The position numbers and the translations under genes are program-made. From the IMG/VR virus record IMGVR_UViG_3300042509_000617, positions 1 through 33,077 of that record: a stretch of 33,077 bases of DNA; one strand, 5' to 3'. Under the pieces are notes generated by a model, which had not been told where the DNA came from, ran no database searches, and saw nothing but the letters and a program-made list of their open reading frames with translations. Positions 17,461-24,853 of this stretch are shown here, one piece after another. How positions within the stretch are numbered: position 1 is the first letter of the stretch; every line of letters begins with the position of its first letter. This DNA is from a virus.

Positions 17461-18273
17461 TTAGTCTGTACAAAATCCTGCTTGACATCCGCTTCCAGTT
17501 CCAAAGAAGAAGTCTTGTTGCAACCCAATCGTTTTAATTTGCTCGTAATTCATTTCCTTTTTCCAGTTCGCATGTGTTTCTTGATCAGCAAACCATTGCA
17601 TCTTATTGGGCTCATTGTCCCAATTCTTTCTAAGCTGCTGCACTGGTTTCCAAAAGCATCCAACACAATTGCTATCTGCTGGGAAAGTAATTCCTATTTT
17701 TTGTGCCCATTGGTAAATAGGATAGTGGGTTATCTTATCTTCAATTAAAGGGAAGTATCCCTCTCTCCATTCTAATTCTTCCCACCTATTTCTTGTACCT
17801 CTTTTGCCTACAATTCCTTTGAATGTAGTACTAAATCTTTCTGCCCTTTCCTTTTCATCGTATCTAAATCCGATACCCATTCTTACTTTTTCATTGATGT
17901 TTTTAAACCACCAATCAAAGATAGGTCTGATTTTCATCTCAGTAGTACAGAATCTCCATTGGTTGTTTGGCAATCCTTTACCTCCAGTTATTTTTCTATT
18001 TACCCTTTCGAAAGTATCACCTACAACCCATATAATTTCTTGCCCTAGCAACTGCTCAAGGTCTCGCATTGCATACAGAGTAAGGTCACTCTCTGCTGTA
18101 GCTATAAAGTCTTTGCCTATTTTTTCAGAAACATATCTAACTATGCTCTCATCTTTAGGCTTACAATTTATGTCATTGATTTGTACCAGGGCAAATAGAT
18201 TGTAGTCAGCAGGGTAATGCATAGCCATATAACTTGATGTCTTGCCTCCACTTAAACTATTAATTATTTTCAT
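17461..18273 (-). CDS. PP-loop ATPase, PAPS-reductase / DndC-like
   Basis: A 270-residue member of the adenine-nucleotide alpha-hydrolase superfamily. The PP-loop SGGKTSSYMA starts at residue 8 and binds ATP pyrophosphate. Later there are Cys-containing motifs: RFCTTEMKIRPIFDWW (~107-123), SNCVGCFWKP (~200), and GCQAGFC at the extreme C terminus. The Cys spacing resembles Fe-S-binding relatives such as DndC rather than plain PAPS reductase. Phage members of this family are common but their substrate is unknown; sulfur chemistry on nucleotides or DNA is a possibility, not shown. It overlaps the upstream small Cys gene by four bases (ATGA). No Dnd or queuosine partner genes are visible. Its base composition looks more AT-rich than the flanking helicase genes, which may mean separate acquisition. 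Confidence 0.8.
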   Translation of the reverse strand: MKIINSLSGGKTSSYMAMHYPADYNLFALVQINDINCKPKDESIVRYVSEKIGKDFIATAESDLTLYAMRDLEQLLGQEIIWVVGDTFERVNRKITGGKGLPNNQWRFCTTEMKIRPIFDWWFKNINEKVRMGIGFRYDEKERAERFSTTFKGIVGKRGTRNRWEELEWREGYFPLIEDKITHYPIYQWAQKIGITFPADSNCVGCFWKPVQQLRKNWDNEPNKMQWFADQETHANWKKEMNYEQIKTIGLQQDFFFGTGSGCQAGFCTD

Positions 18274-23253: not shown

Positions 23254-23985
23254 TTAAAGTATTTCGTTTATAAAGTAATTGTCAATATCATCTGTTGGAT
23301 TTGGTCCGAAGTACCTGTAGTATACCTCCATTGCTCGCTCGACCTTAGCTTCTCCACCCTTTACGAATTCTTCGGATGGTCTGAACAGACCAAGCTGCTC
23401 AGATTCCTTGTCAATAACGTAAAAGTATAGGGGTTTTCCAAATAATTGCTGGTAAATGTAGCACTGAGAGTCATAGTTGTAGCTCTTTGCAGACCATCTG
23501 AACTTGTTGATGTCTGATGTGGTCTTCAGATCAATGATTGAATCGCTAGTAACTATGTCTGCCTTTGCTTTCCATTGCAGTCCCTTAATCTCACCAATGG
23601 TTGGCTCCTCGTATAGGTTGCCATCCCTGTAGATGTCATCGTAGAACTGGAGGTTGGACTTCATCACACCAGCAAGTCTAACAATTTCCTCGTACTCCTT
23701 GGTCAACATGGCGAATCCAATGTTGTTATCAGCACAGAAGGTCTTGTACTCCTTTGTATTCCTTGTACTGACATCCACCTGTGGCACGATTACAGCCTTC
23801 TCAGGCTCAAGAATTAGCTGATGGAATAGTCTACCCTCATGAAAGTGTTTGAAGTCCCCAGAGGGCACTCTAAATAGCTTAGGATTGGTAAGCAAAGAAT
23901 ATATGTCTGAGTTGGATAGGTAGTACCTACCCTTCCCATTGTAGTACTCATCATCATTCCTTAGTTCATCGATTATTGTATTCAT
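23254..23985 (-). CDS. PD-(D/E)XK exonuclease (RecE/Cas4-like)
   Basis: A 243-residue nuclease. An early HFHEGRLFHQLILEPE segment (His/Gly/His at ~49-55) matches the N-terminal motif of phage and RecE-type exonucleases. The active site reads AKADIV (Asp143), IIDLKTT (Asp152, Lys154) and YDSQCYIYQQ with Gln174, the usual QxxxY motif. Such enzymes resect one DNA strand so that an annealing protein can act; the DUF1071 annealing-protein gene lies one gene upstream with the methyltransferase between them. No Cys cluster for an Fe-S domain is visible, so Cas4-type is less likely. The ATG overlaps the methyltransferase end by 20 bases. Confidence 0.82.
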   Translation of the reverse strand: MNTIIDELRNDDEYYNGKGRYYLSNSDIYSLLTNPKLFRVPSGDFKHFHEGRLFHQLILEPEKAVIVPQVDVSTRNTKEYKTFCADNNIGFAMLTKEYEEIVRLAGVMKSNLQFYDDIYRDGNLYEEPTIGEIKGLQWKAKADIVTSDSIIDLKTTSDINKFRWSAKSYNYDSQCYIYQQLFGKPLYFYVIDKESEQLGLFRPSEEFVKGGEAKVERAMEVYYRYFGPNPTDDIDNYFINEIL

Positions 23986-24853
23986 ATTGTTCTATAGTTT
24001 TAAATATTTGATACACTACCTGGGGGACTACCGCATTCCCCCCTGCCATTATTGATTCTTTTCTCCATTTAGGAAAGGTAATTCCGTCCAGTCTACCGGA
24101 AAGCCCATCATTTCCATCACAAATTGGGTGGACAGATGGGAACATTTCGAAGTCTGCTCTTGGTAATTTATTGCATCCTTCAAACTGTTTGTCATCGGGT
24201 TGTGACCATTCCTTGGAGCATCTCCTCTCCTCCCTGCATTCTTGTCCGATGATACTGGAGTCGGAAGAATCGATATTTTTTTTGCATATTCCGATGGACT
24301 CATTGTCCTTCCTTTCGCAAATTGCTCTGACCTTGGTATTTCGTTTGCTCTTGGAGTTGAAAGCCACAAACCAGACTCTATCTCTTCGGTGTGGAGCGTT
24401 GACACTTGCAGCTGGAAGTATAAACGGTTGGACTTCGTACCCTTCAGATTCCAAGTCAGCTTGCACCTCTTCGAATACCATCCCTCCATTCCAACTAACA
24501 AGCCCACGAACGTTTTCGCCCAGGACCCAGCGTGGTTGTATCTCTCGAATTGCTCTAAGCATTTCTGGCCAGAGGTGGCGATCATCATTCTTTCCGAGTC
24601 TCCTACCTGCTGTTGAGTATGGTTGGCATGGGAATCCTCCTGTGATGATGTCAATTTCTCCTCTGTAAATAGAGAAGTCTGTCTTGGTGATGTCATTGTG
24701 TGATATTGAATTAGGCCAATAATATTTTAAAACTCTCTGACCGAATGGATTCCATTCGCAATGGAATACGTTCTCCCATCCCATCCAATCGGAGGCTAAA
24801 TCAAAGCCCCCGATTCCACTGAATAGAGATCCGTGTCTAAGCATTAAACTCAT
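23966..24853 (-). CDS. DNA (cytosine-5-)-methyltransferase
   Basis: A 295-residue C5 methyltransferase with all key motifs in order: I, SLFSGIGGFDLA (Phe11; AdoMet binding); IV, GGFPCQPYS with catalytic Cys76; VI, GENVRG (Glu113-Asn114-Val115); VIII, APHRRDRVWF (~153-162); X, GGNAVVPQVVYQIFK near 275. The target recognition region between VIII and IX is short and low in hydrophobic residues (~165-245), so the recognised sequence cannot be told. No partner restriction enzyme is visible, so it probably protects phage DNA from host restriction. A second ATG at 24844 is also possible. The gene overlaps its neighbours by 17 and 20 bases, and a 215-codon frame lies wholly inside it. Confidence 0.93.
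   Translation of the reverse strand: MSLMLRHGSLFSGIGGFDLASDWMGWENVFHCEWNPFGQRVLKYYWPNSISHNDITKTDFSIYRGEIDIITGGFPCQPYSTAGRRLGKNDDRHLWPEMLRAIREIQPRWVLGENVRGLVSWNGGMVFEEVQADLESEGYEVQPFILPAASVNAPHRRDRVWFVAFNSKSKRNTKVRAICERKDNESIGICKKNIDSSDSSIIGQECREERRCSKEWSQPDDKQFEGCNKLPRADFEMFPSVHPICDGNDGLSGRLDGITFPKWRKESIMAGGNAVVPQVVYQIFKTIEQYEYNNR
24049..24696 (-). CDS. Overlapping gene inside the cytosine methyltransferase (215 aa), candidate
   Basis: A 215-codon frame, same strand, shifted one base forward from the methyltransferase frame and lying wholly within it. The product does not read like chance: TSLFTEEKLTSSQEDSHANH, ATSGQKCLEQFERYNHAGSW, KLTWNLKGTKSNRLYFQL, ESGLWLSTPRA, SILPTPVSSD and FVMEMMGFPVDWTELPF. 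I recall proteins with this same motif order (C-L-E-Q, K-L-T-W-x-L-K-G-T, LPTP, MMGFP-x-W-T) as hypothetical or methylase-labelled entries in phages. The LPTP part corresponds to the poorly conserved target-recognition region in the other frame, so here the inner frame seems the better conserved one. Function unknown; perhaps an accessory to modification. Two antisense frames are also open here, so openness alone proves little. Confidence 0.5.
   Translation of the reverse strand: MTSPRQTSLFTEEKLTSSQEDSHANHTQQQVGDSERMMIATSGQKCLEQFERYNHAGSWAKTFVGLLVGMEGWYSKRCKLTWNLKGTKSNRLYFQLQVSTLHTEEIESGLWLSTPRANEIPRSEQFAKGRTMSPSEYAKKISILPTPVSSDKNAGRRGDAPRNGHNPMTNSLKDAINYQEQTSKCSHLSTQFVMEMMGFPVDWTELPFLNGEKNQ

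Follow-up and report, generated by a model that had tools for sequence, protein, structure and literature searches.

The multispecific C5-methyltransferases of Bacillus phages (SPR, phi3T group) have a tandem row of exchangeable recognition modules, each about 40 residues long, between their motifs VIII and IX, and in the two-polypeptide enzyme M.EcoHK31I the smaller gene lies inside the larger one in another reading frame. Passages on M.EcoHK31I (YGGCCR) in PMC3404938 place motifs I-VIII and X on the larger chain and motif IX on the smaller one, and assign the recognition domain, as a prediction, to the larger subunit; passages of the same source describe M.AquI (CYCGRG) as a split C5-methyltransferase with motif X in the second chain. 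According to passages of PMC8936443, M.BatI (GCDGC), a Bacillus anthracis prophage methyltransferase, is active, 20-30% smaller than typical enzymes and equipped with an unusually short recognition domain and a motif I of the form CxGxxG; these passages on M.BatI make no mention of a nested gene.

The window analysed here, a stretch of viral DNA of 33,077 nucleotides, contains a methyltransferase gene that resembles M.EcoHK31I, as described, in that the large chain carries motifs I-VIII and X and the small chain motif IX. Here, too, the small gene sits inside the large one and is read in a different frame. The two systems appear to differ at the recognition domain, which in the passages cited is assigned to the large chain of M.EcoHK31I, whereas the outer chain of the window is unconstrained and disordered at that position and exchangeable cassettes are found in the inner one. 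With M.AquI the locus shares two chains, the second of which bears part of the recognition region together with motif IX, but motif X, described for M.AquI in the second chain, belongs here to the outer chain. The cassettes are comparable, by analogy, to the exchangeable modules of the SPR/phi3T group, which, in contrast, share chain and frame with the catalytic domain, while the cassettes lie in the +1 inner chain. We consider as the best explanation that the locus may work like M.EcoHK31I with shuffled recognition cassettes added, and we give a probability of about three in four to a split C5-methyltransferase with its catalytic subunit in the outer frame and its recognition/motif-IX subunit in the +1 frame of the same gene.

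Literature searches on nested genes in cytosine methyltransferases brought up no description of such a two-frame arrangement in phages. In phages of Paenibacillus larvae the nested gene has already been recorded as 'g50 Internal gene' (e.g. NC_029084); this internal gene and the family PHROG_1008 both bear the label DNA methyltransferase, and neither is given a role or a partner. PHROG_1008 nevertheless matches the nested partner rather than the catalytic protein.

Gene layout and distribution of motifs between the two frames

The features of the locus are as follows.

23966-24853, minus strand: outer frame, catalytic subunit of a C5-methyltransferase, 295 residues, motifs I-VIII and X; Pfam PF00145 (DNA_methylase), E 3.7e-45
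24049-24696, minus strand: inner +1-frame gene, 215 residues, ATG start, PHROG_1008 family; proposed recognition/motif-IX subunit
24364-24696, minus strand: inner residues 1-111, conserved N-terminal domain with a hairpin at residues 78-100 (pLDDT about 80)
24268-24363, minus strand: recognition-like cassette 1 of the inner protein, LSTPRANEIPRSEQFAKGRTMSPSEYAKKISI
24136-24267, minus strand: recognition-like cassette 2 of the inner protein, LPTPVSSDKNAGRRGDAPRNGHNPMTNSLKDAINYQEQTSKCSH
24073-24135, minus strand: inner residues 188-208, LSTQFVMEMMGFPVDWTELPF, C5-methyltransferase motif IX in the inner frame
24620-24640, minus strand: outer motif IV GGFPCQP with catalytic Cys76
24158-24334, minus strand: outer residues 174-232, disordered linker (pLDDT <50) at the position of the recognition domain
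24020-24043, minus strand: outer motif X GGNAVVPQ, residues 271-278, just 3' of the inner stop codon
24837-25451: Sak-type annealing protein, flanking the methyltransferase gene
23254-23985: exonuclease VIII-like PD-(D/E)XK protein, flanking it on the other side

The outer protein is a C5-cytosine methyltransferase with motifs I, IV (PCQ), VI (ENV), VIII and X in order. It carries motifs I-VIII and X, and it has neither motif IX nor a folded recognition domain. Its profile aligns to M.HhaI over motifs I-VIII only, and motif IX is located in the inner frame. In the AlphaFold model, outer residues 1-167 form a mostly confident catalytic domain with M.HhaI as best PDB matches (E 3e-14), and no folded small domain is present; residues 174-232 are disordered where the recognition domain is expected.

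The inner open reading frame of 215 codons lies entirely within the methyltransferase frame. Its product matched the PHROG_1008 profile (E 4e-18) and nothing in Pfam and NCBIfam. It terminates in the motif-IX segment, in which motif IX reads MMGFPVDW, and a short tail. Scanning of viral contigs for FVEWMMG[LF]P revealed two sorts of genes: single-chain enzymes, with motif IV, FVEWMMGLP and motif X (GNGVVPQQ) in one frame, and nested genes, with FVEWMMGFP in the +1 frame and motif X (GNAVVP) in the outer frame 17-29 residues further on, a distance similar to that in the single-chain enzymes. The single-chain profile places FVEWMMGLP...GNGVV on residues 271-307 of M.HhaI, the motif IX-X segment, with a weak score of 3.4 bits, and this match to motif IX rests on the position beside motif X. 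Motif IX is assigned to the inner protein because the inner and single-chain profiles align at the FVEWMMG segment (P 9.5e-7 and 4e-11) and the single-chain segment falls on M.HhaI 271-307. Two inner subfamilies were sampled, one mainly of Firmicutes and Bacteroidota type (A4) and one mainly of Actinobacteria and Proteobacteria type (A5), and they are homologous over their length. The AlphaFold model of the inner protein alone was poor (pLDDT 55) and matched no fold in the PDB, and neither its profile nor its sequence matched a solved structure there.

The initial annotation had suggested that the nested protein might be a methylation partner or an anti-restriction factor. The first of these is well supported, the inner protein carrying the motif IX that is missing from the outer chain, whereas nothing points to an independent anti-restriction factor; methylation itself would be the anti-restriction activity.

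Conservation of the nested gene and selection on both frames

The nested gene in the +1 frame is genuine and subject to selection. Its 648-base open frame had been noticed in the window alone, and our comparison confirmed it: both frames were present at offset +1 in all 228 homologous loci, collected by similarity from viral contigs and phage records, 80 of which were ascertained with the methyltransferase profile only. Synonymous recoding of the outer protein introduced a mean of 11.2 stops into the inner span, and none of 5000 trials was free of stops, as the actual sequence is; across 172 non-redundant loci the same recoding gave a mean of 13.1 expected stops. In 172/172 loci the ATG of the inner frame is located within outer residues 35-65, mostly at 52-53, and in phage Rani GGGAGGTG lies upstream of it. 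As a control, dcm of E. coli, a methyltransferase outside the group, has 14 stops in its +1 frame and no match to the inner family.

Two antisense frames are also open in the window, and the initial annotation had been cautious about frame length on their account. These frames average 5.7-16.4 stops over the inner span in the homologues and are open in none of them; being closed and not conserved, they were rejected as chance.

The initial annotation had mentioned relatives of the inner protein in other phages without a methyltransferase in the other frame, which our searches did not bear out. Phages, plasmids and viral and genome contigs yielded no stand-alone inner gene beyond truncated or degenerate loci: the matches lacking an intact methyltransferase frame were contig-end fragments, the internally deleted L355 and the degenerate L365 and L366.

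Several loci have features of their own. In L366 the outer methyltransferase-like frame has neither PCQ nor ENV and is catalytically dead by sequence, and the inner frame is still open; L365, a piece from the end of a contig, is of this type too, and in both the open inner frame terminates in FVEWLMGFPIGW. A degenerate copy in the prophage of E. coli 23CRST032 (L386, 2874-3635) has one stop in the outer and one in the inner frame. In Mycobacterium phage Llama (L378, 1071-1830) a single indel apparently shifts both frames, and the methyltransferase is annotated in two pieces, gp74 and gp75; several related mycobacteriophage records contain the same split match.

In the +1 arrangement the outer third codon position is the inner second position, and the test for reduced silent change in the outer frame, called for in the initial annotation, showed such a reduction. 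Outer fourfold-degenerate sites differed between loci at 0.61 before and 0.59 after the overlap; inside it the values were 0.38 for the core, 0.26 for the recognition region and 0.13 around motif IX (per-column test of constraint, p=1.7e-9). Substitutions in 41 independent pairs were also classified according to what they do to each of the two proteins. Those that leave the outer protein unchanged and alter the inner one occurred at 0.62 of the non-overlap rate in the core (95% interval 0.53-0.73), at 0.57 in the recognition region (0.40-0.78) and at 0.21 in the motif-IX part (0.14-0.30). Within the recognition region, changes altering only the outer protein were about as common as doubly silent ones, a rough estimate from few doubly silent changes. 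Outside the overlap no constraint on the +1 frame was seen. Purifying selection on both frames is supported by these results.

The assignment of the recognition region to the inner frame, with the outer frame as a nearly unconstrained linker, was borne out as well. When cassettes from different phages, 70-92% identical at the DNA level, were compared, mean protein identity was 0.825 in the inner and 0.493 in the outer frame; inner identity was the higher in 720/720 comparisons, the pairs not being mutually independent, and 62% of the differences fell at inner third positions. These substitution patterns are most naturally read as the mark of a translated and selected inner frame, which would also be the functional one in the recognition region. 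A separate observation concerns L363 (5119-5195), whose sole DNA-level similarity to E. coli prophages (about 80% over 77 bases) lies exactly on the doubly coding motif-IX segment.

Cassette exchange and variants of the split

Between the N-terminal domain and motif IX the inner proteins contain 0-5 segments of about 25-50 residues each, starting with xxTP (LPTP...), two of them in the window. Among the 46 cassette types found in at least 3 loci, 44 occurred in more than one neighbourhood. A shared cassette at least 90% identical was combined with N-terminal domains at most 65% identical in 83 pairs, and 18 of 40 pairs with near-identical N-terminal domains differed in their cassettes; L047 and L066, for example, have near-identical N-terminal domains, an identical last cassette and otherwise different ones. 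Cassette 1 of the window recurs at 0.91 and 0.88 identity in L087 and L048, where the N-terminal domains are 0.64 and 0.58 identical. Judged from this distribution, the cassettes recombine between phages. They would look like exchangeable target-recognition modules and, by analogy with such modules, may choose the DNA target.

The motifs are divided between the frames in three ways. In variant A, to which the window belongs, the inner protein comprises the N-terminal domain, cassettes and motif IX, and the outer one motifs I-VIII and X. This variant was found in phages of Paenibacillus, Lacticaseibacillus, Klebsiella, Xanthomonas, Acinetobacter, Microbacterium and Synechococcus, on a Leptospira plasmid, in E. 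coli prophages and in the majority of 22 contigs from prokaryotic genomes of many phyla. In variant B the outer frame holds motifs I-X, and the +1 frame with a YDP...SWRTS...LPTP protein is kept and ends at motif IX. Variant C is represented by gp6/gp5 of Mycobacterium phage Firecracker, a close counterpart of the M.AquI split, in which the outer protein has motifs I-VIII only and the +1 gene contributes the N-terminal domain, LPTP and motifs IX and X; gp6 and gp5 are each annotated as DNA methyltransferase, and a Pfam search with gp5 did not recover motifs IX-X. That motifs IX and X have moved from one frame to the other would be difficult to account for if the two frames did not contribute to a single enzyme. 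Retention of the LPTP +1 frame in single-chain relatives with motif IX in the outer frame indicates, in turn, that providing motif IX is not the only function of the inner protein.

At L372 (3768-3793, Blastococcus mobilis), motifs IX and X stand together in the inner frame, FVEWLMGFPPGVDRRRALGNAVVPQ, and the outer frame is without motif X, which reflects either a naturally displaced boundary between the frames or an error in the sequence.

The proposed two-frame enzyme and its alternatives

According to the split-enzyme model, translation of the outer frame would produce a catalytic subunit that has motifs I-VIII and X and, in place of the recognition domain, an unstructured linker. The +1 frame, read from its own ATG, would give the 215-residue partner, in which the N-terminal domain is followed by the two exchangeable recognition-like cassettes and then by motif IX. 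Independent initiation at the inner ATG is suggested by the conservation of this codon and by the upstream sequence in phage Rani. The two chains, made from one message, would assemble into an active enzyme, the inner cassettes would select the DNA target, and methylation of the phage DNA would presumably protect it against host restriction. The parts of this model that the data support directly are selection on both frames, the fixed overlap, motif IX in the inner frame and the shuffling of cassettes.

Among the alternatives, a translated and selected inner protein that acts as a separate factor, either a regulator of the methyltransferase or an anti-restriction protein, and not as a structural part of the enzyme, holds up best and is still unlikely. 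It would agree with the conserved N-terminal domain that the inner protein has to itself and with its persistence in single-chain relatives whose outer frame already includes motif IX. A separate factor would not, however, be expected to carry motif IX at the very place at which the outer chain has none, or motifs IX and X together as in Firecracker, and, apart from fragments and degenerate cases, no copy away from a methyltransferase frame was found. A single long polypeptide, made by a programmed frameshift that leads out of the outer frame and into the inner one, appears considerably less probable: the frames are collinear and a single +1 shift near the outer stop of Firecracker would join motifs I-X in one chain, but the window would need two opposite shifts, into the inner frame for motif IX and back for motif X, and the inner ATG, with its upstream sequence in phage Rani, lies in all 172 loci long before any useful shift point. 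An untranslated inner frame, its constraint arising from an RNA or DNA element or as a side effect of codon composition, can be practically dismissed, as nothing was found in its favour beyond the fact that chance can give long open frames in biased genes, and against it stand the inner-frame wobble pattern, the uniformly higher inner conservation of the cassettes, the absence of all 11-13 expected stops, the lack of such constraint outside the overlap and the negative dcm control.

The nested gene is real, selected and widespread, and it most likely encodes the subunit that brings target recognition and motif IX to a methyltransferase written in two frames. Somewhat less firmly, we favour the view that it represents a widespread class of phage C5-methyltransferases, in which an outer catalytic chain is paired with an inner +1 target-recognition chain of 0-5 shuffled cassettes, and in which recombination would alter specificity via the inner frame while the outer frame tolerates it as a disordered linker. 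If true, this would explain how phage cytosine methyltransferases that are very short and in which no recognition domain is visible can be sequence-specific; M.BatI, as described in the passages cited, is a published puzzle of that sort. Locus L239, where a nested inner gene is present, has the motif I CSGIAG and Asp and Ala at -11 and +12 of the catalytic Cys, the spacing given there for D75, C86 and A98 of M.BatI; by motif I and residue spacing, not by sequence comparison, M.BatI appears to belong to the L239 group, which carries the nested gene. It would also correct the annotation of the many phage genomes whose second subunit is now missing or misnamed. A large natural set of overlapping genes would become available for measuring frame-specific evolution, and swapping the exchangeable cassettes would provide a direct test of DNA-target specificity.

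Two minor observations concern annotation and gene neighbourhood. In L002 (BK068099) the inner frame alone is annotated, as 'hypothetical protein', and the methyltransferase frame (1239-2225) is absent from the annotation. The phage of the window also encodes a PAPS reductase-like protein (17461-18273, minus strand; PHROG_424), and Bacteroides phages BS-TP4 and BKO1-TP3, as well as phage C72C1, likewise have PAPS reductases close to their methyltransferase.
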